Shown here piece by piece: positions 5,450 through 47,840 of a DNA stretch of 47,840 bases. Position numbers and translations under genes: made by a program. The DNA is from Bryobacterales bacterium. Its GTDB lineage: Bacteria; Acidobacteriota; Terriglobia; Bryobacterales; UBA6623. Position 1 is the first letter of the stretch. The number at the start of each line of letters is the position of its first letter. The notes under the pieces were generated by a model. It had not been told where the DNA came from, did no database searches, and was given only the letters and a program-made list of their open reading frames with translations. The stretch covers positions 152,470 to 200,309 of the forward strand of contig JAPPLB010000069.1 in assembly GCA_028819575.1 (NCBI GenBank). Direction: 5' to 3'.

Positions 5450-5465
5450 GGGAAATCCAGACGCC

Positions 5466-10591: not shown

Positions 10592-10592
10592 A

Positions 10593-10666
10593 CTGCGTTT
10601 TCACGACTTGGCGCGAGCCCAAGTGAGTGAGAAGGTCGTCAGGAAGCGGTCTGAGTCGCTTGGCGA
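10593..10666 (+). repeat. Degenerate left arm of Family I palindromic repeat
   Basis: The stretch CTGCGTTTTCACGACTTGG, then AAGTGAGTGAGAAGG, TCGTCAGGA and GAGTCGCTTGGCG aligns in order with the left arm of Family I repeats (CTGCATTTCTCACCACATGG, AAGTGCGTGAGAGGG, CCGTCAGGA, GAGCCGCTTGGCG). It begins two bases after the TGA stop of the preceding gene. No right arm was found, so this is a decayed half copy. Confidence 0.5.
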
Positions 10667-11142
10667 CCTCCCTTGTGGGTTCGGAGGAGTCTTTTGTGCT
10701 GCCTCGTGCAATGTTCCGCATCAACGCACATCCTGAGAGTAGTTCCGAATAACTGTCGATATGTAGCTCGATGAATGCGGGAATGTGGATTGGACGATAC
10801 AGACGGCGGCGGACAAATTACGGCTCCTGAGTTAGGCGATAGACAACATGGAGCGGCGCTGGAAGCGATAACCCGTATGCCCCATGTGGGTAATACGACT
10901 GAGTTTCCGCCCAAGTAACCACTCAGCCGCTCAGACCGCCATTACAGGGGGGGCAACTTGCGGCTGAGTCCCGCAGACCATATTGCTGGCTCCAGGACGT
11001 ACAATGTGCATGAGGTCAGATCACCCCGTGGAAGGCTTCGGATACGGGTCGGGGGATGTAGGTGCTCTGACAATCTCCTGCTCGTCGGATTTTCGAACAG
11101 CTGGTTAGTCAAGGCAACGGACACTCATAGGCTCCCCAACAC
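10667..11142. other. Intergenic region with one inverted repeat, no gene recognised
   Basis: About 476 bases before the RND adaptor gene hold no convincing coding frame. A perfect 10-bp inverted repeat, ACTCAGCCGC (10921-10930) and GCGGCTGAGT (10960-10969), encloses a 29-base spacer with a GGGGGGG run. GTACAATG near 11000 resembles a -10 box for the efflux genes. The inverted repeat could be an operator or a remnant of a mobile element end. Confidence 0.4.
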
Positions 11143-12393
11143 ATGTGGATCAAGCGCATCATTTGGATCGTCGTGGGCGCGGGCCTGGTGTTCTTCGCCG
11201 GCATGCGCATCTACGAGATCCAGGAAAAGCAGGCGAATCCGAAAGCGGCCAAGAAAAAAAAGGGGGGCCGCGTCGTCACGGTCGCGGTCACCGAGGCTCG
11301 TACCGGCGAGTTGCGTGACGTGCTGCTGCTGACCGGTGCTCTGAAGCCCAAGGAACAGGTTGATGTAACGGCGAAAGTCACCGGCCGGCTGGAAAACCTT
11401 TACTTTCAGATCGGGGACCCGATTCGCGAGGGCGACCTGATCGCGGAACTCGATGACGACGAAATCCAGCAACAGGTGAACCGTGCAACCGCTTCGATCG
11501 GCGTGGCGCGCGCTTCGATGCAGCAACGCGAAGCCGAATTGCAGAACGCGATGGTTGAACTGAACCGCGCTCAGAGTCTGCTCGACGATGGTCTGATCTC
11601 GCCGCAGGACTTTGCGGCTGCCAAGACACGACTGGATGTCGTGAAGGCGCAAGTCGAATTTGCCCGTGCTCAGACCGAACAGACCGAGGCCGAGCTGCGC
11701 GAATTGAAGATCCGGCTGGAGCAGACAAAGATCTATGCTCCGATGTCCGGTTTCGTCGCCACGCGCTTTGTTGATGTCGGTGCTCTCATCAGCCCCACAA
11801 CGCCGCTGCTGCGAATCGTCAACCTGTCGACCATGGTCACTCTTGCTAACGTGCCGGAGCGCAATATCGGCCGCCTGCGTATCGGCAATCCCGCTGAAAT
11901 CGAGATAGACGCGATTCCCGGCGAGACCTTCACAGGGCGCGTCGCCCGCATTGCTCCGGTGTTGGACGCAGCTACGCGCACGGCGCTCGTAGAGATCGAT
12001 GTCCCGAATCCGGGGAACCTGTTCAAGGCGGAAATGTTCGTTCGCATTCGCCTTGACACGGGCGCTTTGCGGAGTGCGATTCTCATTCCGCGCGAAGGTC
12101 TGGTCTATCGAGGCACGCAGCCGGGTGTGTACGTCGTTGACGGGAATCGGCCCGTCTTCCGGGCCATCGAGACCGGATTGACGCGTGAGCAGAATGTCGA
12201 GGTTCTGGCGAATCTCGAATCAGGCGTCAAGATCGTGGGCCGGGGGGCCACGATCCTTGAAGAGGGCGATCGAATCAATGTAGCGGTGCCGTCCGGCAAT
12301 GAGAAGCCGACTCCGGATCACTCCGGCTCTCCGGCCGAAAAGGGCGAGCGCTCCGCACAGCAGAGCGCCGAGAAAAGACAGTCGACCGAATAG
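11143..12393 (+). CDS. RND efflux periplasmic adaptor (AcrA/MdtA-like)
   Basis: The 416-residue protein is a membrane fusion protein linking an inner-membrane RND pump to an outer-membrane channel. An N-terminal membrane anchor (WIVVGAGLVFFAGM) is followed by a lipoyl half-motif (VTAKVTGRLENLYFQIGDPI), an alpha-helical hairpin rich in Gln/Glu/Ala (residues 100-190), the second lipoyl half (IYAPMSGFVATRFVDVG) and a beta-barrel/MP domain (NIGRLRIGNPAEIEID). The C-terminus is a charged, disordered tail. It lies 17 bases before the RND pump gene and clearly forms an operon with it. The exported compound cannot be told from sequence. Confidence 0.9.
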   Translation: MWIKRIIWIVVGAGLVFFAGMRIYEIQEKQANPKAAKKKKGGRVVTVAVTEARTGELRDVLLLTGALKPKEQVDVTAKVTGRLENLYFQIGDPIREGDLIAELDDDEIQQQVNRATASIGVARASMQQREAELQNAMVELNRAQSLLDDGLISPQDFAAAKTRLDVVKAQVEFARAQTEQTEAELRELKIRLEQTKIYAPMSGFVATRFVDVGALISPTTPLLRIVNLSTMVTLANVPERNIGRLRIGNPAEIEIDAIPGETFTGRVARIAPVLDAATRTALVEIDVPNPGNLFKAEMFVRIRLDTGALRSAILIPREGLVYRGTQPGVYVVDGNRPVFRAIETGLTREQNVEVLANLESGVKIVGRGATILEEGDRINVAVPSGNEKPTPDHSGSPAEKGERSAQQSAEKRQSTE

Positions 12394-12410
12394 CAGGTCT
12401 GAGGTGTCAG

Positions 12411-15400
12411 ATGAGCCTTGCTGAGTTTTCGATCCACAGGCCGGTAACGGTCCTCATGGCGTGCCTGATCGCCATGCTGCTCGGCACGATCTCTTTCATT
12501 CAGATCCCTGTCGATCTGATGCCCGAGATGGAGTACCCGACGATCAGCGTAACCACCGTCTACGAGGGTGGGGCTCCTGAGGAGATGGAAACTCTCATCT
12601 CGCGGCCTCTGGAGCAGTCGCTGGCATCCGCTCCCGGGACCGAGGAGATCACTTCGAGTTCGAGCGAAGGCAATTCGAGGGTTCGCGTCCGATTTGTGTA
12701 CGGCACGAATCTCGACGAAGCCGCCAACGAGTTGCGCGAGCGCATCGACCGACGCCGCAACCTGCTGCCGGAGGACATCGAGCCGCCTGTGATGTACAAG
12801 TTCGATGTCTCACAGTTCCCCATCATGTTCCTCAGTGTTGCTTCCGACACGATGGACGCCAAGCAGCTCCGCCATTACGCAGAAAAAAACTTGCAGTATC
12901 GACTGGAGCGGACACCCGGGGTAGCTCAAACGAGAGTCAGCGGGGGGCTCCGCCGCCAGATCCACGTCTATCTCGATCTCAAGAAGATTCGGGCCCTGAA
13001 CCTCTCCGTCGCGCAAGTTGTCCAGACCTTGCGCCGGGAAAACCTCAACCGCCCCGTCGGTCCTGTTTTCGAAGGCCGGTACGAAGTGCTGCTGCGCACG
13101 CAGGGTGAGTTCGAAAATCTGCAGGACATCTTGAATGTAGCCGTGGCAACTCGCAACGGCGTGCCCGTTTACATCCGGGACATCGCAACGGTTGAAGATT
13201 CACACGAAGACATCCGATATATCGTCCGCGTCAACGGCGAGTCCGCAGTACGGATGTACATCTACAAGCAGTCCGGCGCCAATACGGTCCAGGTTTCCGA
13301 AGGCGTATGGCGAGAGGTCGACAAGATCCACGCCGAAGGTCTTCCCGTTCGCATGGAAAGCACCTGGGACTCTGCAAACTTCATTCGAGCATCAATCAGC
13401 AACGTGAATGATGCAGCCCTCGCCGGGGCCGGATTGGCCATCTTCGTTTTGCTTTTTTTCCTGCGCAGCTTCTCGAGCATGCTCATCATCGGCGTGGCAA
13501 TTCCGATCTCAGTCATTTCGACGTTCGCGCTGATGTACTTCAACGGCTTCACTCTGAACACCGTCTCTTTCGGGGGATTGGCCCTCGGAGTCGGCATGCT
13601 CGTTGATAACGGCATCGTCGTTCTCGAAAACATCTTCCGTCACCGCGAGGGCGGCAAGAACCTCAAGGCTGCCGCGGTTCTCGGGAGCCGCCAGGTCGGC
13701 ATGGCGATCACCGCCTCAACGCTGACTACCATCGCCGTCTTTGTGCCGGTGCTGTTCATGGGAGGTGTATCAGCTCAGCAGTTTCAACAGCTTGCCTGGG
13801 TCGTTTCCTTCGCGCTGCTCTGTTCATTGATCATGGCGCTCACCGTCGTTCCCGTCTTGTGTTCCCGCTTCCTGACGCAAGACCTTTCCAAGGAACGCCG
13901 CGGTCTCGGAGGAGCCTTGTACCGCTGGACAGGGTCGGTTCAGAACCGTTGGATGCACTCCTATACGCGTGCGCTCGAATGGTCCCTTGACCACAGGGTG
14001 ATTGTTGTCGTTCTCGCCGTGGGTTTGTTTACGTCGTCCTACTACCTGATGCCTTTCATCGGCGTGGAATTGCAACCGGAGGTTGACGAAGGCCAAATCC
14101 GTATCGAATTGAAGCTTGAACCGGGCACGCGCGTCGAAGTGACGGACGACACCATGATGCGCATCACGGATATCGTCAACCGGGAAGTCCCCGAGGCCGC
14201 CTACATCATGACCGAGGCGGGTAGCAGCAGCACGTTTCGCTTTCGTGGAGGCAATGAGGGCCGGGCGCGCATCGATCTCGTTGATCAGAGCCAGCGCGAC
14301 CGCTCGGCAGCCGACGTTGCCAACACGCTTCGGCCTCTCCTGAATCTCGAGCCGGGCATGATTGTACGCACACGTGTCAGCAGCGGCCTGTTCCGCCGGC
14401 GGGGCAGCGGTTTCGGCGAGGGTGACGACCGGCTCTCCGTCGAAGTCCGCGGACACGACATCGAGACCATTCGCGAACTTTCCGAGCAGGTGCGGGAGAC
14501 CATGACCTCGATTCCGGGTGTCGTGAGTGCTCAACTCAGCCGTTTGCCGGGCGTGCCGGAGATGCTGATCTCGGTCGACCGCGCCAAGGCCAGCAGCCTC
14601 GGACTTTCCGTTACCGAGGTCGCCGATACGTTGGAGACGGCTATCGGCGGAACCCGTGCTTCCCTTTATCGAGAGGAGGGCGACGAGTACGACATCCTGG
14701 TCCGGTTGCGCGAGGAAGATCGGCTCGAGCTCGGTCAGGTCAACAATATCCCGATCACCCTTCCCGACGGCAGTACTATCCCGATCGAAAGCGTTGTTCG
14801 CATGAAGCGCCAGGAAGGCCCCACTGAGATCACCCGCGCTGACCAGCAACGCATCATCGAGATTACCGGCACCATCGCGGAACGCGACCTCGGCAGCGTC
14901 GTGACGGATCTGCGGGCGGGTCTCGCGCAAATTCCCAGGCCTGCGGACGGCGACTACGAGTTCCGCCTGGGCGGCGAGTACGAGGAACAGCAGGAGGCCT
15001 TCCGGCAACTGACTCTGGCGGCGTTGCTCGCTCTGATCCTGGTCTACATGGTGATGGCCGCGCAGTTTGAGTCGCTGCGGGATCCGTTCATCATCCTGTT
15101 TTCAATCCCGCTCGCGGGGATTGGTGTGGTGTTGATGTTGCTGTTGACCGAGACGACGTTCAACATGCAGGGTTTTCTCGGTGTCATCGTCCTGGTGGGA
15201 ATCGTTGTCAACAACGCCATCGTGTTGGTGGACTATACCAACCTCCTTCGCCGTAAGCATGGCCACTCGCTGCGAGACGCTGTCGTCACCGCCGGCGGGC
15301 GGCGTTTGCGCCCGATTCTCATGACGACGGTCACCACAGTGCTTGGCCTGAGCCCGATGGCTCTCGGCCTCGGTGAAGGCGGTGAGTTGCAAGCACCGAT

Positions 15401-15569
15401 GGCGCGTGTCGTGATTGGCGGCCTGACGACCTCGACGCTCATCACACTCGTGTTCATTCCCGTCATCTACTTCACGCTGGAGAGTTGGTCGGAGAAACTC
15501 CGGGCTCGCCGAACGGCCGCAGTGCCTGCCCCAAGCACACTACACCCGGCCGGTTCCGCCGGAGACTAG
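12411..15569 (+). CDS. RND efflux pump, inner-membrane transporter (HAE1/AcrB-like)
   Basis: At 1052 residues this is a full-length RND proton-antiporter with twelve expected membrane spans and two large periplasmic loops. TM1 begins at [20 protein letters not shown]. The TM4 proton-relay region reads [14 protein letters not shown], with Asp399 followed by Asn400, where AcrB has two aspartates; single-Asp variants are usual in the HAE1 branch. The C-terminal half repeats the fold ([21 protein letters not shown]). The start at 12411 is supported by GAGGTG six bases upstream. The pump would pair with the adaptor encoded just before it and with the TolC-like protein at 20313. Substrates (drugs, solvents, lipids) cannot be inferred. 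Confidence 0.93.
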
Positions 15570-15607
15570 AAGACTCATTCCCTTCCCGGGCAGGACGGAA
15601 AGCGAAG

Positions 15608-15668
15608 TTGTCCCTCACTTTTTCTTGGGAGACAATAACCTTGTGAGTCAGTTAGCGTCTTAACTGAC
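15608..15668 (+). promoter_or_regulatory. Candidate promoter with downstream palindromic operator
   Basis: TTGTCC (15608-15613) and GACAAT (15631-15636) are spaced 17 bases apart and form a plausible -35/-10 pair. Just after the expected start site lies a perfect 8-bp palindrome, GTCAGTTA (15647-15654) and TAACTGAC (15661-15668), with a six-base loop. AGACAA (15630-15635) and TTGTCT (15677-15682) could extend the pairing. This could be an operator, or an mRNA hairpin, controlling the second part of the efflux block. Confidence 0.45.
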
Positions 15669-15750
15669 AACGGGAGTTGTCTTCAGCCGGTCCATGCCCC
15701 GTCCAGGGATCGCCGCTCGAAGACAGTTTCTTCGACCATACCCGCAAGAG

Positions 15751-17013
15751 ATGCCAGAACGAACGTCGAAATCGAGTCATGTAGTGAGATGGATCTTTGT
15801 GCTGGCGGTGCTGGTGGCCATCGCCTACGCCGGCTTGCAGTTCTGGATGCCGACGACGCGGGAGGTTCCCACGGCGCGTGTCGAGCGGAAGGAGTTCGTT
15901 CAGACCGTCCGTACCCGCGGCGAAGTGAAGAGCATGAATACAGTCCCCATTGCGGCGCCCCAAACACCGGATCTTCAGATCGTCTGGCTCGCCGCTGATG
16001 GCAAGCCGATCAAGAGAGGAGATGTTGTCGTTCAGTTCGACCCTGCGGCTCAGGAGGAGCGCTACCTGGAGGAGTCGACCGAGGTTCGGCAGGTTGATAG
16101 CGAGATCGTCAAGGCAAGAGCACAGCATTCCATTGCTGACGAGTTGAACGCAATGCTCGTCATGCGCTCGGGGTACGACCTTGAACGCGCCAAGCTGGAA
16201 GCCAGCAAACAGGAAATCTTGTCGGAAATCGAAGGCCTCAAGAACCGCATCGTCGTCAAGGTTTCCGAAGGCGAACTGTCGAAAGCTCAGACGACCGCAA
16301 GAGCCACGGACATCTCTCAGGAATCCGATATCGTCCAGCTCGAGGAGAAGAAGAACAAGGCCATGCGCGACCTGGAGCGCACCAAAGGCTATCTCGGCAA
16401 CATGGTCCTGCGGGCGCCGGTTGATGGCGTCGTCCAGATTCGTCCGAACCCGCGGGCACAAGGTTCATCCCGACGCAGCCGGCCTCCTTTCCAGGAGGGA
16501 GACTCCGTCTGGGCCGGCGCCGAGATTGTGGATATCCCCGACCTGTCCACTATGGTTGTTGAATTCCGGGTCGAAGAGATCGATCGGGGACGGACCCAAA
16601 TGGGACAGAAAGTCCGTGTCCGCGTTGATGCCGTGGCGGGAGCCGTGTTTGAAGGAACAGTCGAATGGCTCAGCCCGATCGCCACTCTGATCTATCGCCG
16701 TTTTCCACCCGAAAAGAACTTCCCGGCCCGTGCCCGCATCGACAAGATGGATGATCGCCTTCGCCCTGGGATGAGTGCCAGCGTAGAGGTTATTGTCGAG
16801 GAACGGCCCGATGTACTCGTGATCCCCTCGAAAGCCAGCTTTCAGATTGACGGCAGGCCTACCGTCTTCGTCCGCAGCGGAAGCGGCTTCCGCAGACGCG
16901 CGATTGAAGTCCTCGCGCGCAACGCGAACGAGATCGTCGTTTCCGATACGCTGAGCGAGGGAGAAGTGATTGCTCTCGAGAACCCGGAGTTGAACAGCCG
17001 CAAGCAAGGTTGA
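15751..17013 (+). CDS. HlyD-family efflux adaptor (MacA-like)
   Basis: This 420-residue membrane fusion protein has one N-terminal membrane span (WIFVLAVLVAIAYAGLQFW), a lipoyl half-domain, a coiled-coil hairpin (residues 80-200, Glu/Lys-rich) and a second lipoyl half (LRAPVDGVVQIRPN). A beta-barrel with KVRVRVDAVAGAVFEG and a C-terminal MP domain (VEVIVEERPDVLVIP) follow. The ATG at 15751 is chosen because it immediately precedes the anchor; an ATG at 15694 would add 19 residues. It is the first gene of a set running to 21950 and is followed 15 bases later by another adaptor. The context with a MacB-type permease suggests a MacA-like role rather than service to the RND pump. Confidence 0.85.
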   Translation: MPERTSKSSHVVRWIFVLAVLVAIAYAGLQFWMPTTREVPTARVERKEFVQTVRTRGEVKSMNTVPIAAPQTPDLQIVWLAADGKPIKRGDVVVQFDPAAQEERYLEESTEVRQVDSEIVKARAQHSIADELNAMLVMRSGYDLERAKLEASKQEILSEIEGLKNRIVVKVSEGELSKAQTTARATDISQESDIVQLEEKKNKAMRDLERTKGYLGNMVLRAPVDGVVQIRPNPRAQGSSRRSRPPFQEGDSVWAGAEIVDIPDLSTMVVEFRVEEIDRGRTQMGQKVRVRVDAVAGAVFEGTVEWLSPIATLIYRRFPPEKNFPARARIDKMDDRLRPGMSASVEVIVEERPDVLVIPSKASFQIDGRPTVFVRSGSGFRRRAIEVLARNANEIVVSDTLSEGEVIALENPELNSRKQG

Positions 17014-17028
17014 ATTCACGCCCCGTTC

Positions 17029-18975
17029 ATGAAGAAGATTCTCATTAGGCTTTCCGTTCTGCTCCTGCTCCTCGCTGCAGCGGGGGCGGCCTACTTTTTG
17101 TACAACCGCATTCCGGATGAACAGCCAGAGCAGGCCCTGGCCACCGTGCAACGCGGAGATCTTGTTGTCAAGTCGTATCTCCGTGGGACGCTGCAAGCTG
17201 TCCGCTCAACGACACTCGCAGCCCCCAATCTGGGATTGCTTTCCCAGATTACACAGTTGGCTGCTCCGGGGTCGTTGGCAAGACCGAAAGACCTGATTGC
17301 CGAGTTCGACGACTCGGACCGCCGCGTCTTCCTCGCGGATACCCTGCTCGATCTCGAGAAGACCAAACAGGATCTGAAGAAAGGCGAGACCGAGCTGGAG
17401 ATTCTCAAAAGCCAGGATGAAGTCGAGCTCATGAGCTCCAGCTTTGCTGTGCGGCGCGCCGAGCTGGATGTAAGGCAGAACGAATTGATCTCCGCGATCG
17501 ATGCCCGCAAGAACGAGTTGACGCTCGAGGAGGCTAAGCGCCGGCTTCAGAGGCTCGAATCCGACATCGAATCACGCCTGCAGCAGCGAGAGGCCGAGTT
17601 GACGGTTCTTCGGGAAGAGATCCGAAAAGCTGAGCTCGAAGTCGCTCAGGATCGCCGCCGCATCGAAAACGCCCGTGTTCTCACTCCCATGGGAGGGCTC
17701 GTCTCGACTCTCGAGAATCGATCCGGGCGCCGCTCCTTTGGCCAGTCTGCGCCTCCCGTCCAGGAAGGTGACCAGGTTTCGCCTGGCATGTCGATCGTCC
17801 AGATCCTCGATCTTTCTGAAATGGAGCTCGTAGCCAAGGCGGAGGAAGTCGAACGGGCGCGGTTGCGGGAAGGCCAGGAAGCCGTGATCCGTCTGGATGC
17901 CCTCCCGGGACGCCCGGTCCGCGGAAAGATCAAGCGGCTTGGCAGTACAGCCTCCGCTAATTTCTTCAGTGGCGAAGCGACAAAGAAATTCGATTGTGTG
18001 CTCAGTGTGGACATGACGCAGTTGCTGACCCACGTTGGCGCAACACCTGAGCAGATCAAACGCATCTTGGCCGGTGCGGCTTCCATCCCTGCCACGGGCG
18101 AAAAGCAAACGCCTCGGAAGTCGATGGCATCGGCCTCTTCCCGCGCTGGCGACGGGCCATCGAGGTCAATCAGAGAAACATCAACCGCAAGTGCAAAAAA
18201 TGCACAGAGTACAGACAAATCCGACGCGTCGAAATCTCAGCGCAAGGGAGGCCGCCGCAATATGTCGGCTGAGGACCGCCAGCGGGCTCGGAAGATGATG
18301 CAGGAGCTCGCCGGTGGCCGCGACATCCAATCCATGAGCCAGCAAGAGCGTCGCACGCTTTTTCAGCAGATGCGCGCACGCATGGGGGACAGTTCCGGAG
18401 GACGTGGCGGCAGTGGTCGGGGCGCTCAAGACAGCCCAGGCGGAGGCGCACGGGGTGCTCCTGGCGGCGGCGGACCGGAAGCCACTCCGATCCCGATGGT
18501 CCCGCCCTCGCCTGCATCCGGATCCGCCAAGCAGCAGTTCACCGCCGCCGATCGGGAAAACGCCCGGCTCCCGATTCCTCCCAAGGAGGGTTCTGATGTC
18601 GAAGTCCTGCTCCGCCCAGGCCTTCTTGCCGACGCCGAAGTTGTCATCGAGAGAATTCCAGATACACTCCACGTGCCGGTGCAGGCGGTATTCGAATCCG
18701 GCGAAAACAACATCGTCTACATCTTCGACGGCGGCCGCCTCGCGCCGCGCCGTGTCGAAACCGGCCGGCAAACCGAAACTCGAATAGCGATTCTCGAAGG
18801 CCTGCTGGAAGGTGAGACGATTTCATTGCGGCCGCCGCTCGACCAGCGCAAGACCGCGAAGAAAAAGAAAGCGGACCGGGGGAAATCTGCGGGACCCTCC
18901 TTTCCAGGCGCCCGCGGGGGTTCGGGAGCAGGGCCGGAGGGCGCACCGGACAGGTCACGGCGGGGGCCTCGTTAG
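17029..18975 (+). CDS. HlyD-family adaptor with long low-complexity insertion
   Basis: The 648-residue product is a second adaptor in tandem, much longer than the usual 350-450 residues. It has an N-terminal anchor (SVLLLLLAAAGAAYFLYN), a lipoyl half, a long coiled coil (residues 100-220), and a second lipoyl half (RVLTPMGGLVSTLENRSG). The barrel follows (EGQEAVIRLDALPGRPVRGK), then about 190 residues (roughly 335-524) rich in Ser, Gly, Arg and Gln. These include a helical piece (MSAEDRQRARKMMQELAGG) and a glycine-rich tract. The MP domain resumes at EVLLRPGLLADAEVVIE. The tail is Lys/Arg/Gly-rich. The insert sits inside the barrel/MP region facing the transporter. Four bases separate the stop from the permease start, so the genes are tightly coupled. 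Confidence 0.83.
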   Translation: MKKILIRLSVLLLLLAAAGAAYFLYNRIPDEQPEQALATVQRGDLVVKSYLRGTLQAVRSTTLAAPNLGLLSQITQLAAPGSLARPKDLIAEFDDSDRRVFLADTLLDLEKTKQDLKKGETELEILKSQDEVELMSSSFAVRRAELDVRQNELISAIDARKNELTLEEAKRRLQRLESDIESRLQQREAELTVLREEIRKAELEVAQDRRRIENARVLTPMGGLVSTLENRSGRRSFGQSAPPVQEGDQVSPGMSIVQILDLSEMELVAKAEEVERARLREGQEAVIRLDALPGRPVRGKIKRLGSTASANFFSGEATKKFDCVLSVDMTQLLTHVGATPEQIKRILAGAASIPATGEKQTPRKSMASASSRAGDGPSRSIRETSTASAKNAQSTDKSDASKSQRKGGRRNMSAEDRQRARKMMQELAGGRDIQSMSQQERRTLFQQMRARMGDSSGGRGGSGRGAQDSPGGGARGAPGGGGPEATPIPMVPPSPASGSAKQQFTAADRENARLPIPPKEGSDVEVLLRPGLLADAEVVIERIPDTLHVPVQAVFESGENNIVYIFDGGRLAPRRVETGRQTETRIAILEGLLEGETISLRPPLDQRKTAKKKKADRGKSAGPSFPGARGGSGAGPEGAPDRSRRGPR

Positions 18976-18979
18976 CGCA

Positions 18980-20236
18980 ATGCAGGCCGTGCCAACCGTG
19001 TTGCCCGAGCTGTGGATGGGCTTGGGGAGCCTCTTGGCTCACAAGCTTCGTTCCCTGCTCACGATGTTGGGGATGATCTTTGGCGTCGGCGCCGTTGTCG
19101 CGATGCTCTCGATCACCGCGGGAGCGCAGCAGGAAACCCTGCGTCAGATCGATCTCTTGGGCGTCAACAACATCATCGTCGAAGCAATTGAGGCTGTGGA
19201 TCGGGAAACTCTTCTCGCGGTCCGTGAGATATCACCGGGCCTGACCTTTCGCGACTACCGAGCCCTCACCGAGAGCGTCCCGAACGTCGAGGCGATGTCG
19301 CCGCGCAAACAGTTTCATCCTACCTCGGTATTGCCGCGCTCCGAACAGGAGATGCCGACGGTGATCGGCGTTCTCCCCAATTACACCGACATCTATACCG
19401 TCACGTTGCTCGAAGGCAGGTTCTTTACTGCGGAGGAGGATTTGCGGTCTGCTCCCGTCTGTGTTCTCAGCGAACGCGCCAAGATCAGCCTGCTGGGCTA
19501 CGGACCGGCCGTCGGCAAGCACGTGAAGATGGATTCGGTTTGGCTGGAAGTGATCGGAGTCATGGCTCCTCAATCGTCAGCCGAAGCCGACATCGAAGGA
19601 CTCGAGACGGACGACCAGAACAATTTGGTGGTCGCGCCCCTGAATACGGTGATGCGCCGTTTCGACGATACCAACAGTTATCTGAAAGATGAAATTGACG
19701 GAGTCTTTCTTCGCGTGTACCACGATGCCGATCCGATCGAGACGGCCGAGGTCGTGCGAGCGATTCTCACTGCGACGCACAATGACGCCGGCGATTTCGC
19801 GGTCACCGTACCCGCCGGCCTCCTCGCCCAGCGGCAGCGGACGCAGTTCATTTTCGAGGTCGTCATGATTTGCATCGCCGGCATATCGCTGCTCGTCGGG
19901 GGTATCGGGATCATGAATATCATGTTGGCCACCGTGCTCGAGCGCACGCGCGAGATCGGGATTCGTCGTGCGATCGGAGCGAGGCAACGGGATATTGTCC
20001 GCCAGTTCCTGATCGAGGCGGTTCTCATTTCGATCGCTGGCGGTCTGATCGGAATCGGAGCCGGCTTCGGAGGGTCGCTCATTATCGCCAACATCGCCGA
20101 ATGGCCCACTGTCGTAACGGCCACTTCGATCGTTGTGGCTTTTGGAGTGTCGGTGTTTATCGGTTTGTTGTTTGGCATCTACCCGGCGGTGCAGGCCGCG
20201 AAGCTCGACCCCATCGAGGCCATTCGTTACGAGTAA
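18980..20236 (+). CDS. MacB-type ABC transporter permease (ATPase domain absent)
   Basis: This 418-residue protein has the MacB/FtsX permease layout. An N-terminal span (LRSLLTMLGMIFGVGAVVAM) is followed by a large periplasmic MacB_PCD domain (residues 50-285) and three C-terminal spans. The signature ERTREIGIRRAIGARQRDI comes after the second span and DPIEAIRYE ends the protein. The start at 18980 lies four bases after the upstream adaptor stop; the frame is open further upstream but overlaps that gene. E. coli MacB carries an N-terminal ATPase on the same chain. Here there is none, and no separate ATPase gene is in the window, so the energy source must be encoded elsewhere or the system has changed function. 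Confidence 0.88.
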   Translation: MQAVPTVLPELWMGLGSLLAHKLRSLLTMLGMIFGVGAVVAMLSITAGAQQETLRQIDLLGVNNIIVEAIEAVDRETLLAVREISPGLTFRDYRALTESVPNVEAMSPRKQFHPTSVLPRSEQEMPTVIGVLPNYTDIYTVTLLEGRFFTAEEDLRSAPVCVLSERAKISLLGYGPAVGKHVKMDSVWLEVIGVMAPQSSAEADIEGLETDDQNNLVVAPLNTVMRRFDDTNSYLKDEIDGVFLRVYHDADPIETAEVVRAILTATHNDAGDFAVTVPAGLLAQRQRTQFIFEVVMICIAGISLLVGGIGIMNIMLATVLERTREIGIRRAIGARQRDIVRQFLIEAVLISIAGGLIGIGAGFGGSLIIANIAEWPTVVTATSIVVAFGVSVFIGLLFGIYPAVQAAKLDPIEAIRYE

Positions 20237-20312: not shown

Positions 20313-21950
20313 ATGGTTAAGAGACTCATCACGTTGATCCTGGTTGGAGTCCTCTCTCTGACCGCACAATTCAGCACGTTCCCCAGCAAGAGCTACTTTC
20401 GGCAGCAGTGGTCGAAACCGCCGCTCAATGTGGAAATCGAACCCGTCTCGCATCTGCGGGACTTTCTCTACGACTCAAAGATCGAATTGTCGCTACGGGC
20501 CTACCTGGAACTGGTGATGTCGAACAATCCCGACGTCAATCTCCAGAAGCTCGCGATCATCGAACAGCGGAACAACATTCAGCGCGCCTACAGTCCGTTC
20601 GACCCGAACGTCATAGCCGACTTCCGTTCGAACCGCTCCACGACGCCCTCCATTGATCAGCTCCAGGGGGCCGATGTTCGATCGCGACTGAACCAGACTG
20701 GCGGCTTCACCTACAGCCAGAGCCTCGACACCGGCACCGACTACACCATCGGCTACACCGGAGGGAAGTTCGCGGACAACAGCCAGTTCGCCAACTTCAA
20801 TCCCAGCATCACCCAGAGCATGCAGTTCACGGTGAGCCAGAACCTGCTGCGGGGACGCGGGCGCTATGTCCAACGGATTCCGATCATGGTGGCGCAGTCG
20901 AGGTTGGCGCAGACGGAAGAGCAGGTCCGCGAGCGCATATTGACCCTGATCTTTCAGGCCGAGAACGCCTACTGGAACGCGATTAACGCTCGCGAGCGAC
21001 TCAAGGTCGAGGAGAACAACCTTGAAATCTCCCGGGCCTTCCTGGAACAGGAGAAACTGCGCCTGGAACTCGGGGCGATCTCTCCGCTCGATATTTTCCA
21101 GCCCGAGCAGAACTTCGCCAACGCCCAGGTTCGTGTCACCCAGGAGCGCTATCGACTGCAGCAGTTCGAGGACGCCGTCCGGCGCTGGATCGGGGCCGAC
21201 CTCAACCCCGACTTCCGCCACCATCCACTCGAACTGACCGAACCCGTCGAACCCCGCTTCTACATGGAGATCCCGGATCCCGAAGAAGTTGTAGCTCGGG
21301 CGCTCGGTAATCGGCCTGAACTCGCACAGACCCGGCGCGCCTTGGAGATCGACGACCTGAACATCAAAGGCTTCACCAACGACATTCGACCGGACCTTTC
21401 GATCAACGCCAACTATAGTTCGCAAGGCCGCAGCGGCAACTTCTTTGATCGAAGAGGACTTGGGGGCACAATAGCTGAAGTCATTCCCGGAGGCTTTCCC
21501 CAGGCCATCGATCAGCTCTTCCAGTTCCGATATCCGACCTATGGATTCGGACTCGTGTTGCAGCTTCCTCTCCGGAACCGCAGAGCCGCTGCCGATCTTG
21601 CCAATGCCGCGATTCAGAAAAAACGCAACCTCTACAATCTGCGGAGTGATGAGCAAACGGTTCGCCTGGAAGTGCTCCAGGCCATTTCCGGCGTTGAACT
21701 CAGCAAAGCAGCGGTCAACCAGGCCAAGATCGCTCTCGGATTTGCGCAGAAGCGCTTGGATGCGGAACAGAAAAAGTACGACTTGGGGGTCAACACCGCT
21801 TTCTTCGTGCTTCAGGCCCAGAATGATCTGGTGGACGCGCAAGCTCAGGTGCTCGCCCAGGCGATCGCCTACCGCCGTAGTTTGCTCACACTGCTTCAGT
21901 CCACCGGCGAGCTTCTCGGCGCACGCAGTATCGCGCTCGGTTCTCCTTAG
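20313..21950 (+). CDS. TolC-family outer-membrane efflux protein
   Basis: The 545-residue protein is an outer-membrane channel of the TolC/OEP family. It starts with a signal peptide (MVKRLITLILVGVLSLTAQF). Two OEP repeats follow, with long alpha-helical segments (AENAYWNAINARERLKVEEN and later DLANAAIQKKRNLYNLRSDE) that build the periplasmic barrel, and Asn/Gln/Tyr-rich beta stretches near YSQSLDTGTDYTIGYTGG. It is last in the plus-strand efflux block and can serve the RND pump, the MacB-like permease, or both. At 545 residues it is longer than the common 430-490. The TAG stop is directly followed by a Family II repeat. Confidence 0.9.
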   Translation: MVKRLITLILVGVLSLTAQFSTFPSKSYFRQQWSKPPLNVEIEPVSHLRDFLYDSKIELSLRAYLELVMSNNPDVNLQKLAIIEQRNNIQRAYSPFDPNVIADFRSNRSTTPSIDQLQGADVRSRLNQTGGFTYSQSLDTGTDYTIGYTGGKFADNSQFANFNPSITQSMQFTVSQNLLRGRGRYVQRIPIMVAQSRLAQTEEQVRERILTLIFQAENAYWNAINARERLKVEENNLEISRAFLEQEKLRLELGAISPLDIFQPEQNFANAQVRVTQERYRLQQFEDAVRRWIGADLNPDFRHHPLELTEPVEPRFYMEIPDPEEVVARALGNRPELAQTRRALEIDDLNIKGFTNDIRPDLSINANYSSQGRSGNFFDRRGLGGTIAEVIPGGFPQAIDQLFQFRYPTYGFGLVLQLPLRNRRAAADLANAAIQKKRNLYNLRSDEQTVRLEVLQAISGVELSKAAVNQAKIALGFAQKRLDAEQKKYDLGVNTAFFVLQAQNDLVDAQAQVLAQAIAYRRSLLTLLQSTGELLGARSIALGSP

Positions 21951-21954
21951 TAGT

Positions 21955-22213
21955 AGTCCGTGGTAAAAGTCCCGTGGGAGGCGCGGCGGGCTCCTGCTCA
22001 TCCTCGGCGCGGAGTGAGGAGGATCTCCGATCCGGGTGATCTCCTCCGACGAACGACAGAGCTGACGGCCGCAAATGTCCGTCGCCCAAAGGGTTACGCG
22101 CCGCTTCCGCTCGGCTGGGCGGAGAGCGCGGCGCCACGTTCTTGGAACGAACTGGCGTTACGCCATCGGCCCTAGGGTGCGTAACGCCGCCCGCGTGACT
22201 TTTGCCACGGGCT
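21955..22213. repeat. Family II palindromic repeat, complete copy
   Basis: About 259 bases bounded by imperfect terminal inverted repeats: AGTCCGTGGTAAAAGTCCCG on the left, and on the right the reverse complement of AGCCCGTGGCAAAAGTCACG. It starts four bases after the TolC stop and ends 24 bases before the stop of the convergent Gfo/Idh gene. Internal short hairpins are visible (GTTACGC and GCGTAAC segments, GGAGGATC and GATCTCCTCC). GCGCGGCGGGCTCCTGC is shared with the second copy near 37540. No coding frame of note lies inside. Confidence 0.65.
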
Positions 22214-22236
22214 GTTATGGGCTGAACTGCCCTTCC

Positions 22237-24373: not shown

Positions 24374-26608
24374 ATGGGACACGATACGCTGTTGGATTTG
24401 AGACCCTGCGAAATCGAACGTTTGTTCCAAACGCCAAGTCGCCGCATGTCCTTGAAAACGCAAGGCCCCATGGGCATCCAAACCGGGCGCCCCTACCCCT
24501 TGGGCGCGACCTGGGACGGCCACGGCGTCAACTTCGCGGTCTTTTCTCGTCATGCAACCCGAGTCGATCTGTGTCTGTTTGACAATCCCAAGGACGAAAT
24601 GCACGCCCATCGCGTTCCTCTTCCAGGACACACCGATGACCTGTGGCACGGCTACGTCCCGGGAGTTGCACCGGGGCAACTCTACGGATTCCGTGCCTCC
24701 GGCCCTGACGAACCGCATTGCGGCCACCGATTCAACCCCAGGAAGCTGCTCCTCGATCCCTATGCCAAAGCCGTTGGACGTGATCTGGAGTGGCATGACG
24801 CGCTCTACGGTTATTACCTTGTTGGCGATGGGCCGGATCTTGTCAGCGACCCGTGCGATAGTGCCCCTTTCGCGCCCCTTGGTATTGTTGTTGATCCGTC
24901 GTTCGACTGGCAGCAGGACCGGCCGCCTGATATCTCCTGGTCTCACACGCTTATCTACGAACTACACGTCAAAGGCTTCACGCAGCGGCATCCCGACATT
25001 CCGGAATCGATCCGAGGCACTTACCTCGGGCTATGCTCGGAACCCGCCATCGAGCACCTGAAAAAACTGGGAGTCACGGCTGTCGAACTGCTGCCGGTGC
25101 ACCATCACGTCGACGAACATCGCTTGATCCGGCTCGGCCTGAAGAACTACTGGGGATACAACACTCTCGCCTTTTTTGCGCCGAATCGACGTTATGCAAG
25201 CGACCCCTCGCCTGAGAACGTCGTGCGCGAGTTCAAGACCATGGTGCGCACCCTGCACTCAGCCGGTATCGAGGTACTTTTGGATGTGGTGTACAACCAT
25301 ACGGCGGAAACCGGCGAGACGGGGCCGACCCTGTCTTTGCGAGGGTTGGATAACGCCGTCTATTACCGGCTGGACGCCCATGATCCGCGCCGCTGCGTCG
25401 ACTATACCGACACCGGCAACAGCCTTGATTTGACCGAGCCTCGCGTGCTGCAACTCGTAATGGACAGCCTCCGCTACTGGGTCGAAGAGATGCATGTCGA
25501 CGGCTTCCGCTTCGACCTCGCCTCCTCTCTGGCGCGGTCTCCCGATGCCTTCAACCCCCACTCGGCCTTCTTGGCGGCGGTGCGTCAAGATCCCGTCCTG
25601 TCGCGCGTCAAGCTCATTGCCGAACCCTGGGATGTGGGCCAGGGCGGCTATCAGGTCGGTGCTTTCCCGCCGGGTTGGTCGGAATGGAATGACCGCTTCA
25701 GGGACGATGTTCGACGCTTTTGGAAGGGCGGGTTCGGGGTCGGCGCTTTGGCGACTCGTCTGTCCGGAAGCAGCGATTTGTACTCCCGTGCGCGCCGCGG
25801 AACTCGTGCTTCGATCAACTTCATCACCGCGCACGACGGTTTCACGCTGCATGACCTCGTCAGCTACAACGCGAAACACAACGAATCCAATCACGAACTG
25901 AACCGCGACGGCCACAATGCGAACTACAGTTCGAACCACGGTGTGGAGGGATCCACCGACGACGAGGACATCCGGCAGGTCCGCGAACAGCAAAAACGAA
26001 ACCTGCTGACGACGATGATGCTATCGCTGGGGGTCCCCATGATCACCGCAGGAGACGAGATCGGCCGAACCCAACACGGTAACAACAACGCATATTGCCA
26101 CGACAGCGAGTTGACTTGGCACGACTGGGACTTGGATTCGCGTCAGCAAGATCTGCTCCGGTTCGTGTGCCGTCTTTCGATGCTTCGTCGTCGCCACGCT
26201 GTGCTGCGCCAGGATACATTCCTGGAAGGTAAATCTCCCGGGCCGGGAAAGCCGAAGGATGTTGCCTGGTACTTGCCGTCGGGCCGGGAACTGGAAAAGT
26301 CTGACTGGAGCCGCAATGATGCCCGCTGTCTCGGAATCTGGCGGGCTGCCCCGCACGACGGGTCCGAAACCGAAGACCTCGACCTTTTCTTGGTATTCAA
26401 CGGCGGCGGTCAACCGGTGGATTTTCATCTGCCGTCGACCATGCCGGGAGGCTGCTGGGAATTCGTCCTCGATACGACTGGCCATCGGGATGGTGATAGT
26501 TGCTGCCGGCCCCAGGGCGTTGCATCCCTCATTCCTCCACTAAGCGTCCGCGTTTTCCGACGCTGCCGGCCAAGCCCCGACCGATCGCCTCACTCTGCAG
26601 AAACCTAG
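24374..26608 (+). CDS. glgX: Glycogen debranching enzyme GlgX (isoamylase type)
   Basis: This cytoplasmic GH13 enzyme cleaves alpha-1,6 branches of glycogen or limit dextrin. The N-terminal CBM48-like domain starts at GRPYPLGATWDGHGVNFAVF. The catalytic barrel shows YNHTAETG, the nucleophile Asp in VDGFRFDLAS (about residue 379), the acid Glu in LIAEPWDVG (about 416), and the transition-state Asp in ITAHDGF (about 486). GDEIGRTQHGNNNAYCHD is a GlgX hallmark. The longest frame from 24374 gives 744 residues. Homologues usually begin about 10 residues before the GRPYPLG block, so the true start may be 24446 or 24470 (AAGG upstream of the latter). No other glycogen gene is near. The TAG stop directly abuts a Family I repeat. 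Confidence 0.93.
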   Translation: MGHDTLLDLRPCEIERLFQTPSRRMSLKTQGPMGIQTGRPYPLGATWDGHGVNFAVFSRHATRVDLCLFDNPKDEMHAHRVPLPGHTDDLWHGYVPGVAPGQLYGFRASGPDEPHCGHRFNPRKLLLDPYAKAVGRDLEWHDALYGYYLVGDGPDLVSDPCDSAPFAPLGIVVDPSFDWQQDRPPDISWSHTLIYELHVKGFTQRHPDIPESIRGTYLGLCSEPAIEHLKKLGVTAVELLPVHHHVDEHRLIRLGLKNYWGYNTLAFFAPNRRYASDPSPENVVREFKTMVRTLHSAGIEVLLDVVYNHTAETGETGPTLSLRGLDNAVYYRLDAHDPRRCVDYTDTGNSLDLTEPRVLQLVMDSLRYWVEEMHVDGFRFDLASSLARSPDAFNPHSAFLAAVRQDPVLSRVKLIAEPWDVGQGGYQVGAFPPGWSEWNDRFRDDVRRFWKGGFGVGALATRLSGSSDLYSRARRGTRASINFITAHDGFTLHDLVSYNAKHNESNHELNRDGHNANYSSNHGVEGSTDDEDIRQVREQQKRNLLTTMMLSLGVPMITAGDEIGRTQHGNNNAYCHDSELTWHDWDLDSRQQDLLRFVCRLSMLRRRHAVLRQDTFLEGKSPGPGKPKDVAWYLPSGRELEKSDWSRNDARCLGIWRAAPHDGSETEDLDLFLVFNGGGQPVDFHLPSTMPGGCWEFVLDTTGHRDGDSCCRPQGVASLIPPLSVRVFRRCRPSPDRSPHSAET

Positions 26609-26814
26609 TCTGCATTTCTCAACACGTGACGAGGCGAAGTGCGTGAGAGGGCCGTCAGGACTAGGCGCAAGCCGGGCGGAGGAAAAAGGCGCGAGCCGCT
26701 TGGCGCGCGCAGGCGTACTTGAACAGTACATCGAGCACGGCAAGCAAGCGCAACGAAGTCCTGGCGGTCGTATCGTGTGCTTCGACTGTCGGATGGTGAG
26801 AAATGCAGGTCAGG
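26609..26814. repeat. Family I palindromic repeat, complete copy between convergent stops
   Basis: This copy fills the whole gap between glgX and the convergent metallohydrolase gene. The left end is TCTGCATTTCTCA right after the glgX TAG. The right end is GGTGAGAAATGCAGG followed by a short TCAGG and then the TAG of the minus-strand gene. The arms are imperfect reverse complements over most of their length (CGAAG, CCGYCAGGAC and CGCTTG blocks in the same order). The centre carries GTACT-TGAAC-AGTAC. The open frames across it are not genes. Confidence 0.75.
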
Positions 26815-32634: not shown

Positions 32635-32795
32635 CCTGCTTTTCTCACTACATGGCGAGGCGAAGTGCGTGAGAGGGCCGTCAGACATTTCCTCTGGAGC
32701 GAACCAGCCCTGCGCCCATGGTTTTCACGAATCACGAAACACGAATCACGGCCTTTTATCGTGTGCTTCGGCCGTCGGGTGGTGAGAAATGCAGG
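32635..32795. repeat. Family I repeat, chimeric copy
   Basis: The left arm (CCTGCTTTTCTCACTACATG, AAGTGCGTGAGAGGGCCGTC) matches the other copies. The middle is replaced by unrelated sequence and a tandem CACGAAW array (32727-32750). The right arm (GTGCTTCGGCCGTCGGGTGG, TGAGAAATGCAGG) is intact. It lies between cstA and the next plus-strand gene, so this copy is not between convergent genes. Confidence 0.65.
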
Positions 32796-35272: not shown

Positions 35273-35348
35273 GCCACGGTAGCTCAGTTGGTAGAGCAGC
35301 GGTTTCGTAAACCGCAGGTCGTCGGTTCGAGTCCGACCCGTGGCTCCA
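35273..35348 (+). tRNA. tRNA-Thr (anticodon CGU)
   Basis: A full cloverleaf can be drawn by eye. The acceptor stem GCCACGG pairs with CCGTGGC, followed by discriminator T and an encoded CCA. The D-loop is AGCTCAGTTGGTAGAGC. The anticodon stem GCGGT/ACCGC carries the loop TTCGTAA with anticodon CGT at 35306-35308, which reads ACG (Thr). The T-arm is GTCGG-TTCGAGT-CCGAC. Confidence 0.97.
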
Positions 35349-35420: not shown

Positions 35421-35436
35421 CCGTTCGAAACGCAGG
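35421..35436. repeat. Remnant end of a Family I repeat
   Basis: On the minus strand the TAG stop of the FAD oxidoreductase is directly followed by CCTGCGTTTCGAAC, close to the Family I end CCTGCATTTCTCAC. Only the terminus is left. Confidence 0.35.
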
Positions 35437-39950: not shown

Positions 39951-39959
39951 TCCTCGCCC

Positions 39960-39996
39960 GCACGTACTTCGGCCGTCGGGTGGTGAGAAATGCAGG
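39960..39996. repeat. Family I repeat, right arm only
   Basis: TTCGGCCGTCGGGTGG and TGAGAAATGCAGG match the right arm of other copies. The element ends exactly at the TAA of the minus-strand aminotransferase gene. The gap between the two convergent genes is only 46 bases. Confidence 0.6.
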
Positions 39997-43982: not shown

Positions 43983-44177
43983 AGCCTGCTTTTTCCACCC
44001 CACGGAGAGATGAAGTGCCTGAGAAGGCCACCGCCAGGACGAGGCGCGAGTCTCTTGGCGCGCCCAGGCGTACTCTGACCGTACGTCGAGCACGGCAAGC
44101 AAGCGTTGCGAAGGAAAAGCGAAGTCATGGCGGTCCTATCGCTTGCTTCGGTCGCCGGGTGGCGAAAAAGGCGGGCT
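43983..44177. repeat. Family I palindromic repeat, complete diverged copy
   Basis: The ends AGCCTGCTTTTTCCACCC and, inverted, AGCCCGCCTTTTTCGCCACCC bound 195 bases. The interior matches the 26.6-kb copy in order: GAAGTGCCTGAGAAGGCC, CGCCAGGACGAGGCGCGAG, CTTGGCGCGCCCAGGCGTAC and GTCGAGCACGGCAAGCAAGC. The centre GTAC-TCTGACC-GTAC keeps a hairpin although bases differ. It lies directly upstream of, and in part may overlap, the CocE coding frame. Confidence 0.7.
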
Positions 44178-44346: not shown

Positions 44347-46119
44347 ATGTTGTGGTCGCGCCGCAACCTGTTGGCGCTTCTGGGAGCATCGGCGACCCGG
44401 CTATGGTCGCAAGGGGTGGCCACACGAGATGTCAGAGCGCTCCCGCGCGGCAAACCCTCCGGCCTTCCCTTCCAGGCAAGCTTTGTTGATGTTGCAGACA
44501 AAGCCGGCCTTCGTTCACCGGTAATTTACGGTCCCGTTGACCGCAAGGACTATATTCTCGAAACCATCGGATGCGGGGCCGCCTTCCTGGACTACGACAA
44601 CGATGGCTGGCTCGACATCTTTCTGTTGAGCGGTACTCGCCTTGGAGGTGGCCCTGAAGGAGCCACGAATCGACTCTATAGGAACAACCGGGACGGCACC
44701 TTCACCGACGTAACGCGCGAGGCGGGATTAACTCGCACGGGCTGGGCCTCTTCCGTTTGCGTCGGAGACTACCAGAACAACGGACACGAGGACTTGTTTG
44801 TTACCTACTGGGGTCAGAACGTACTGTATCGCAATAACGGCGACGGGACTTTCACCGATGTCACCAGAGAGGCGGGGCTGTTGAAGGAAGAGATGCGCTG
44901 GGGCGCCGGCTGCACTTTCATCGACTACGATCGCGACGGGCTCCTCGACCTTTTTGTTTCGAACTACCTGGTCTTTGACATCGAGAACGTTCCGAAACCG
45001 GGTGAGGGAGGAACCTGCAACTGGAAAGGGATACCCGTGAACTGCGGGCCGCGCGGTCTTCCACCCGGCAGTCATCTTCTCTACCACAACAACGGAGACG
45101 GCACGTTTACGGATGTAAGCGAAGATTCCGGAGTGGCCGCGGCTGAGGGGGGGTACGGCATGACCGCCGTGGCCGCCGACCTCGACGGCGACGGCTGGAC
45201 TGACATCTATGTCGCCTGTGACTCCACCCCCAGTTTCTTTTTTCGCAACAACCATGACGGCACTTTTTCCGAGGAAGGGATGGAGCGCGGAGTCGCCCTC
45301 AATGAAGATGGCATGGAGCAGGCCGGGATGGGTCTGGCCGTGGGCGACTACAATTCGGATGGCAGCCTCGACATCTTCAAGACGCACTTCTCCGACGACA
45401 CCAACGTCCTGTATCGCAACGACGGCCGAGCGCATTTCGACGACGTCACGATAAGAGCGGGTCTCGGTGTCGAGGTCCGTTTCACCGGCTGGGGCGCGGG
45501 GATCGTCGATCTGGATAACAACGGACTGCCGGACATCTTTTTTGTGACCGGCAGCGTCTATCCCGAAGTGGAAAAGGTGCTGCCGAACTATCCTCACAAG
45601 ACGCCCCGCGTGATCTTCCGCAATCTGGGCGGCGGGAAGTTCGAAGAACTGATGGATCTGGGCGGGCCGGCGATTCCGGAGGCGCATAACAGTCGAGGAT
45701 GCGCATTTGGAGACTTCGACAATGACGGTGACATCGACGTCCTGATCGTGAACCTCAATGAACCCCCATCGCTGCTGCGCAACGACGTCGGGAGCGGCCA
45801 TCATTGGTTGAAGGTCAAGCTGATCGGCGTGAAGTCCAACCGCAGCGCCATCGGGGCAACGGTCATCGCCAGCTACGGTGAGCGGATGCAGGCCCAGGCT
45901 GTGACGAGCCAAACCAGCTTCTATTCCGCAAACGACAGCCGTCTGCATTTCGGCCTGGGTCGGGAAACGACGGCCGACTTGGAAATTCGATGGCCGAACG
46001 GTGCGATCGAGAAGGTTCCCGGAGTGGACGCAGACCAGCTCGTCATCCTCAAGGAGGGTTCCGGGGTCTTCCGGAAGCGTAGCCTCGAGAACTCGACTAC
46101 CGGAAGTGGGGCTGGTTAG
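44347..46119 (+). CDS. CRTAC1-family secreted protein (FG-GAP/VCBS repeats + ASPIC/UnbV)
   Basis: This 590-residue exported protein starts with a twin-arginine-like signal (WSRRNLLALLGASA). Seven calcium-binding-type FG-GAP/VCBS repeats are visible, for example FLDYDNDGWLDIF, FIDYDRDGLLDLF, AADLDGDGWTDIY, VGDYNSDGSLDIF and FGDFDNDGDIDVL, which should form a beta-propeller. The C-terminus carries the ASPIC/UnbV module (NRSAIGATVIASYGERMQAQ, DSRLHFGLG, EIRWPNGAIEKV). Such proteins are numerous in Solibacter-like Acidobacteria and Planctomycetota; function is unknown, with adhesion or substrate binding suspected. Its TAG stop is immediately followed by CCTGCC, the end of a Family I copy shared with the convergent aminotransferase. 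Confidence 0.9.
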   Translation: MLWSRRNLLALLGASATRLWSQGVATRDVRALPRGKPSGLPFQASFVDVADKAGLRSPVIYGPVDRKDYILETIGCGAAFLDYDNDGWLDIFLLSGTRLGGGPEGATNRLYRNNRDGTFTDVTREAGLTRTGWASSVCVGDYQNNGHEDLFVTYWGQNVLYRNNGDGTFTDVTREAGLLKEEMRWGAGCTFIDYDRDGLLDLFVSNYLVFDIENVPKPGEGGTCNWKGIPVNCGPRGLPPGSHLLYHNNGDGTFTDVSEDSGVAAAEGGYGMTAVAADLDGDGWTDIYVACDSTPSFFFRNNHDGTFSEEGMERGVALNEDGMEQAGMGLAVGDYNSDGSLDIFKTHFSDDTNVLYRNDGRAHFDDVTIRAGLGVEVRFTGWGAGIVDLDNNGLPDIFFVTGSVYPEVEKVLPNYPHKTPRVIFRNLGGGKFEELMDLGGPAIPEAHNSRGCAFGDFDNDGDIDVLIVNLNEPPSLLRNDVGSGHHWLKVKLIGVKSNRSAIGATVIASYGERMQAQAVTSQTSFYSANDSRLHFGLGRETTADLEIRWPNGAIEKVPGVDADQLVILKEGSGVFRKRSLENSTTGSGAG

Positions 46120-46204
46120 CCTGCCAAAGGTTTTCACAAAACACGAATCACGAAACACGGCCTTTTATCGCGTGCTTCGGCCGTCGGGTGGTGAGAAATG
46201 CAGG
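46120..46204. repeat. Family I repeat, shortened copy between two stops
   Basis: This copy exactly fills the gap from the TAG of the CRTAC1 gene to the TAA of the class III aminotransferase gene. The left arm is reduced to CCTGCC. Tandem CACGAAW units follow (46137-46158), then CACGGCCTTTTATCG and the standard right arm ending GGTGAGAAATGCAGG. It shares the CACGAAW tract with the copy at 32635. Confidence 0.65.
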
Positions 46205-47788: not shown

Positions 47789-47840
47789 CCTGCATTTCTC
47801 ACCACATGGCGAGGCGAAGTGCGTGAGAGGGCCGTCAGGA
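47789..47840. repeat. Family I repeat, left arm, cut by window end
   Basis: CTAG at 47785-47788 is followed by CCTGCATTTCTCACCACATG, then AAGTGCGTGAGAGGGCCGTC. This is the best-conserved left arm in the window. No gene on the plus strand ends at this CTAG, so here the element does not mark a recognisable stop codon. Confidence 0.65.

Follow-up and report, generated by a model that had tools for sequence, protein, structure and literature searches.

The window, the whole stretch of 47,840 nucleotides analysed here, carries protein-coding genes, a tRNA gene (35273-35345) and complete or partial copies of a palindromic element (Table 1). The main copy, 201 bp long, begins directly behind an upstream gene. 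To the 177-bp core form it adds a duplication-like insert of 24 bp; it matches positions 1-177 of our covariance model and keeps both inverted ends of 15-17 bp. A preliminary description had extended this copy to 26814; its start stands, but the copy ends at 26809 and the following four bases are the flanking target. At up to 3 mismatches, the end motif CCTGCATTTCTCACCAC matches the window 8 times (0.1 expected), and the repeat is thus real. Among the other copies proposed earlier, those near 32635 and 43983 are, like the main copy, full-length by the covariance model, the start of the latter being corrected to 43985. Those near 46120 and 39960 proved to be right-end fragments, and the one at 47789 is a left part, incomplete because the window ends with its contig (C19, 200309 bases long). 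Near 10593 we found only a weak, decayed left end with no covariance-model match at E<=1, and the copy proposed near 35421 received no support from the model and is a decayed end at most.

Table 1. Copies of the element in the window and the targets flanking the main copy (G001 and G002, genomes of the same genus).
Feature	Positions	Strand	Remarks
Full-length element, main copy	26609..26809	+	End motif; covariance model, 127 bits; empty site in G001, no element in G002
Left flanking target CTAG	26605..26608	.	Holds the TAG stop of the upstream + strand gene (ORF 24374-26608)
Right flanking target TCAG	26810..26813	.	Imperfect duplication; empty site in G001 is GCAG
Complete element, centre replaced by CACGAATCACGAAACACGAATCACGG module	32635..32795	+	161 bp; 59 bits; empty site in G001
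Full-length decayed element	43985..44175	+	90 bits; same place in G001 (query 11102-19585 continuous there)
Internally deleted element / right-end fragment	46120..46204	+	First 5 left-end bases plus right half; TTAG on both flanks; missing from G001
Right-end fragment	39958..39996	+	End-motif match
Left part of element, ends at contig end	47789..47840	+	27 bits
Weak decayed left-end fragment	10592..10645 (approx.)	+	63% to reference copy

Other repeats also lie in the window. A module, CACGAATCACGAAACACGAATCACGGCCTTTT, substitutes for the centre of several copies (32714-32770 and 46123-46180); it also occurs outside element copies in relatives (e.g. L142), and TTAGTGGTTAGTGGCTAGTGG-like runs are similar. 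A second, unrelated palindromic repeat of ~265 bp with ends like AGCCCGTGGCAAAAGTCACGC occupies 21949-22215; it is missing from G001, which has similar insertions of its own (L156, L138). The segment 35432-36812, which adjoins the tRNA gene, has a second copy in the same genome (C154:4815-6195, 98% identical) with element copies nearby. The gene at 44347-46119 contains tandem DYDNDGWLDIF-type repeats (44590-45750) and looks by eye like an ordinary FG-GAP/ASPIC-like gene.

We searched the genome, 5.37 Mb in 200 contigs, with the consensus end GTGAGAAATGCAGG. At up to one mismatch it had 1066 matches, versus 2 when the motif was reversed as a control. Per 998 kb we counted about 164 units that had kept one or both ends in recognisable form, which extrapolates to ~900 copies or fragments in the genome. 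In 1 Mb that we read through, sizes clustered at 176/177 bp and 201 bp, with the remaining copies spanning 161-294 bp, and many one-ended remnants lay alongside full copies. Merged matches made up 2.25% of 1.06 Mb, and the 177-bp copies were ~96% identical to their consensus. A search of plasmids for the element gave no match.

Element ends avoid genes: none of 226 fell inside a gene called by our home-made gene caller, though 75% of the sequence is coding. Convergent genes flanked 19 of 57 elements, versus 17% of gene pairs overall. In tandem settings, 16 elements were sense and 8 antisense to their neighbours; there is no clear orientation bias, and a role as part of host mRNAs is thus not supported. 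Where an end faced the 3' end of a gene, it sat flush with the stop codon in 19 of 62 cases. We do not claim a separate targeting of stop codons because the insertion can itself create the stop, as at 26609, where G001 reads through. Two further candidates were discarded. An open frame runs through the element here, but relatives such as L322 have stop codons in it, which speaks against a small protein; and no T-run lies downstream of the hairpin, as an intrinsic terminator would have.

The element has moved, and recently. Synteny with G001 (Bryobacterales bacterium APA_bin_29, ~94-95% identical, 215 exact end matches) revealed insertions found only in our genome and others found only in G001, and empty sites in G001 face the window copies at 26609 and 32635. 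G002 has one exact end match, but related elements occur in it whose ends (CCCGCATTTCTCACC) differ slightly. It also lacks the element at 26609, and the insertion there is thus a gain. At one site, our genome (C30:17080-17267) and G001 (C3:106670-106867) carry different subfamilies in opposite orientation, which suggests that the site was reused.

We wondered which transposase moves the element, which encodes none: no PF13701 gene lies inside it, and the preliminary description was right to call it a non-autonomous palindromic mobile element. A transposase flanked by the same ends, which that description had proposed to look for, sits elsewhere in the genome, in two intact IS1380-family insertion sequences (C109 and C121; PF13701, open frame of 492 codons) that are 97% identical. 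Their left end CCTGCATTTCTCACCAG equals the element end over 16 bp, with one change in one of the two copies; the left end of L052, CCTGCATTTCTCACC, is identical to it over 16 bp. Beyond ~16 bp, the interiors are unrelated. The resident copies are flanked by CTAA/CTAA and CTAG/CTAG, and the flanks of the element are YTAR on both sides, mostly CTAG. Element ends fixed by the model, with the flanks disregarded, fell beside YTAR in 58 of 74 cases. IS1380 copies with the same end type have perfect YTAR duplications in a genome of the same family (20 of 21) and in Singulisphaera acidiphila (14 of 14), and the combination recurs in Thauera and others.

The ends also follow the host. In ten genomes, element ends were closer to the resident IS1380 than to the IS1380 of other genomes (permutation p = 0.00025), for example CTCAACGGGGT in Acidobacteria B23T1B8 and CTCATCAG.TT in a Chlamydiae MAG. 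Less favourable to IS1380 as the mobiliser, a recognisable PF13701 gene was found in only 13 of 43 element-bearing Acidobacteriota genomes, versus 56 of 297 overall (Fisher p = 0.056). The shared ends and target, the polymorphic empty sites, the abundance, the intergenic placement and the host-specific matching of ends are established by these comparisons; judged from such sequence features, the element is likely mobilised in trans by IS1380-type transposases.

The preliminary description had likened the element to REPINs, doublets of REPs moved by a RAYT (Y1) transposase that acts on single-stranded hairpins. The long hairpin, its strand asymmetry (see below), the intergenic location and the high copy number are all REPIN-like. 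However, the Y1 (HUH) domain PF01797 had 0 matches in our own genome, which this search covered, while 5 of 14 control genomes were positive, and the RAYT/TnpA-REP gene that the description had suggested looking for is thus missing there. The ends CCTGCATTTCTCACC with their CTAG-type target bear no GTAG/CGTC tag, the 4-bp YTAR duplication and the ends are those of the IS1380 family, and ~177 nt compares with 20-40 bp for REPs. We consider that a REPIN can practically be dismissed.

The flanking 4-mers are often unequal: both were identical in only 15 of 71 copies in our genome and in 18 of 37 diverse elements. At none of 9 clean empty sites did both flanks equal the empty-site sequence, which made it attractive to think that 4-nt overhangs are carried over from the donor, as piggyBac-like synthesis-free integration might do. 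We rejected this because autonomous IS1380 copies duplicate their target perfectly. The two flanks correlate with each other at the outer positions (1 and 4), whereas positions 2 and 3 show no correlation. Away from elements, YTAR tetramers were conserved between two species at 51.5%, versus 75.5% for local controls. This fast decay suffices to explain unmatched flanks, and the shortfall of identical ones is thus largely due to rapid YTAR turnover. Coding sequence is depleted of YTAR tetramers, CTAG included, and their turnover between our genome and G001 is about twice that of neighbouring tetramers.

The distribution of the element is wide. Searching 200 genomes from the order at the DNA level, we found homologues in 13 further genomes, with IS1380-type ends, YTAR duplications, a length of 174-177 nt and largely changed arms, around a conserved core, ACGAGGCGCGCG...GGCGTACTTGAACAGTACGTCGAG...GAGCGCAACGAAGTAG. 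The covariance model, whose construction the preliminary description had suggested, detected copies in 43 of 297 Acidobacteriota genomes, representing 30 of 167 genera, and most matches spanned the full model. Homologue length is near constant at 173-178 nt. Among 50 genomes picked for a related IS1380 transposase, 10 have the element. Among these, copies numbered 3 in Pseudomonadales ACE_PRO66, 33 in Gammaproteobacteria 128-326, 6 in Desulfobulbaceae FCS_M, 23 in Chlamydiae NC_groundwater_819 and 4 in the isolate Azoarcus taiwanensis NSC3; matches in Deltaproteobacteria CSP1-8 and Rhodocyclaceae HKST-UBA165 were weaker. The element is thus known from at least four phyla: Acidobacteriota, Pseudomonadota, Desulfobacterota and Chlamydiota. 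It is rare in Pseudomonadota at large (6 of 349 genomes) and enriched in genomes chosen for IS1380 (5 of 17 versus 5 of 348, p = 2.6e-5). Most carriers outside Acidobacteriota are MAGs, so a single cross-phylum case could reflect faulty binning; several genomes, however, have multiple copies and perfect CTAG flanks, which argues against this as a general explanation.

Two Pseudomonadota genomes (G592, G612) carry the same core with other ends (CCCGTCTTATTCATGA) and apparent 5-bp duplications (CCAAG, TTCAG, CTTAC). These elements (L375, L376, L381, L382) have the same fold and hint at another mobiliser. A contig classed as viral (IMGVR_UViG_3300037424_002862; L356) holds a copy at 730-893 (48 bits) and a partial match at 5444-5534.

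We then asked what the palindrome folds into. The consensus of the genus has a full-length fold of -110 kcal/mol (z = -9.2 versus shuffles), and the whole unit thus forms the one long hairpin foreseen in the preliminary description. The opposite strand reaches only -83 kcal/mol, and 60 of 63 copies have the same asymmetry. Within the genus, 8 pairs carried double changes (0 of 500 shuffles). The GTAC..GTAC centre, whose differing bases had been noted before, is a conserved helix with compensatory changes. RNAalifold on a plain MAFFT alignment gave 55 pairs, 33 of them with compensatory double changes; double-changed cells, a count that the relatedness of the sequences inflates, numbered 150 versus 44.5 in shuffles (0 of 500), and the covariation score was 0.443 versus 0.182 in shuffles and at most 0.110 in slid versions. 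A 35-row alignment, which was itself fitted to the covariance model, had double changes in 45 of 55 pairs and 350 such cells versus 99.8 in shuffles (0 of 500). Rfam 15 recognised only a tRNA in the window and matched none of 11 diverse elements at E<=0.05.

The element is short, multi-copy and non-coding, with IS-like inverted ends, a target duplication and insertion polymorphism; the earlier comparison to MITEs is correct in these respects, but the label leaves the cross-phylum, strand-specific fold unexplained. An ordinary lineage-specific IS1380 MITE would be a deleted insertion sequence whose palindrome is merely its leftover ends, with no selected fold. Ends and target common to the element and the resident IS1380, intergenic location and many decayed copies are what such a MITE would display. 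Yet the interior, unlike the insertion sequence beyond ~16 bp, is homologous across families and phyla at constant length, compensatory changes affect 33-45 of 55 pairs, and the cross-phylum alignment contradicts an unselected fold. The differing arms exclude a recent transfer of one sequence. This explanation is quite improbable: rather than a deletion product confined to one lineage, the element is an old family of near-constant length.

Pairing might also be kept by mutation. Template-switch correction is established for imperfect palindromes, and switching between the arms of a quasi-palindrome would yield compensatory changes without selection; the arms do match in every copy. However, this process should erase internal loops, and these stay at the same places across lineages. 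It also predicts no strand preference, yet in 33 of 34 elements the strand defined by the core folds into a more stable hairpin than its complement (p = 4e-9). On that strand we counted 121 G.U versus 16 A.C cells, counts that depend on the structure having been chosen on it. Changes that keep a wobble outnumbered those that break it in both of two species (71:33 and 108:32), versus 19:25 and 29:37 in unpaired columns; counted as unique column events, the ratios are only 27:21 and 40:25 and not significant by themselves. We regard maintenance by mutation as improbable. Across phyla, compensatory change has preserved the hairpin with its internal loops and core, and has done so on one defined strand.

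The fold could instead act as DNA and play no part as RNA, with the transposase recognising a cruciform or a single-strand hairpin. DNA folds too, the ends form the outer part of the hairpin, and other transposases are known for strand-specific recognition of single strands; the strand asymmetry is compatible with single-stranded DNA as well. On the contrary, a cruciform would not distinguish the strands, IS1380/piggyBac-type DDE transposases act on double strands, the conserved core is set back 50-80 nt from the ends, and G.U pairing is characteristic of RNA. Action as DNA thus seems unlikely to us, though a serious contender, and we infer that the strand-specific fold probably acts as RNA, less likely as single-stranded DNA.

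Taken together, our preferred reading, which we hold with good though not full confidence, is that of a non-autonomous element mobilised in trans by IS1380 and endowed with a selected strand-specific fold. The element would be cut and pasted, via the shared ends CCYGSATTTCTCAC, by IS1380-family (DDE) transposases whose genes lie elsewhere in the genome; it would insert into YTAR, mostly CTAG, and give a 4-bp target duplication. As a best guess, the hairpin would be transcribed from flanking genes and bind a protein. The fold may help the element itself to spread or to be tolerated, for two reasons: dispersed copies evolving neutrally would have lost it over such distances, and one core occurs with different ends and target duplications. 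It is tentatively conceivable, though we rather doubt it, that the element represents a separate class of mobile element in which a structured RNA of ~175 nt is itself preserved, crosses phyla by taking on the ends of the resident IS1380-like transposase, or in two Pseudomonadota genomes other ends with an apparent 5-bp duplication, and is needed for amplification or tolerance.

How does the element compare with known systems? We know of no MITE family with a conserved fold that crosses phyla. The IS1380 family (PF13701, DDE_Tnp_1_4) shares the CCYGSATTTCTCAC terminus and the 4-bp YTAR duplication, with ends matching within genomes, but its members are ~1.7 kb long with a transposase gene and an unrelated interior. 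HEARO/omega RNAs are structured RNAs tied to IS200/IS605 relatives. Like the putative RNA described here, they are linked to a mobile element, but they adjoin a nuclease gene, while our fold spans the whole unit including its ends and has no gene attached. IS1380 transposases are regarded as bacterial relatives of piggyBac, for which, to our knowledge, no conserved structured non-autonomous partner of this type has been described. The eukaryotic piggyBac has a similar 4-bp target of TTAA type (PMC7351741). The bacterial MITEs NEMIS/Correia (Neisseria), RUP, ERIC, Nezha and TIMEs, described from narrow lineages, are likewise 70-300 bp, non-coding, intergenic, foldable and mobilised in trans through IS-like inverted ends (PMC3733652, PMC4133298). 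Unlike them, our element has a core, length and loops common to at least four phyla, with compensated arms; our literature search found no paper describing an IS1380-derived MITE. REPINs and GTAG- and CGTC-tagged REPs are also high-copy intergenic palindromes with a strand-specific hairpin (PMC3116915, PMC3733652), but the element is larger, has different ends and a target duplication, and lacks a RAYT.

Non-autonomous bacterial elements are commonly viewed as short-lived debris of local insertion sequences. Here, by contrast, length, loops, core and strand are retained in at least four phyla even as the arms change in sequence and the ends follow the resident transposase; with a fold kept so widely, the element is no ordinary junk repeat. 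If confirmed, a conserved fold can serve as the basis of a bacterial parasitic element, and the question is then how the fold benefits transposition or the host. Because ~2% of the genome consists of it, the element is also a ready marker for IS1380-type activity. By eye, three of the internal loops pair CGAGG with CGCAG(U)AG, and this repeated module may be a candidate binding site.
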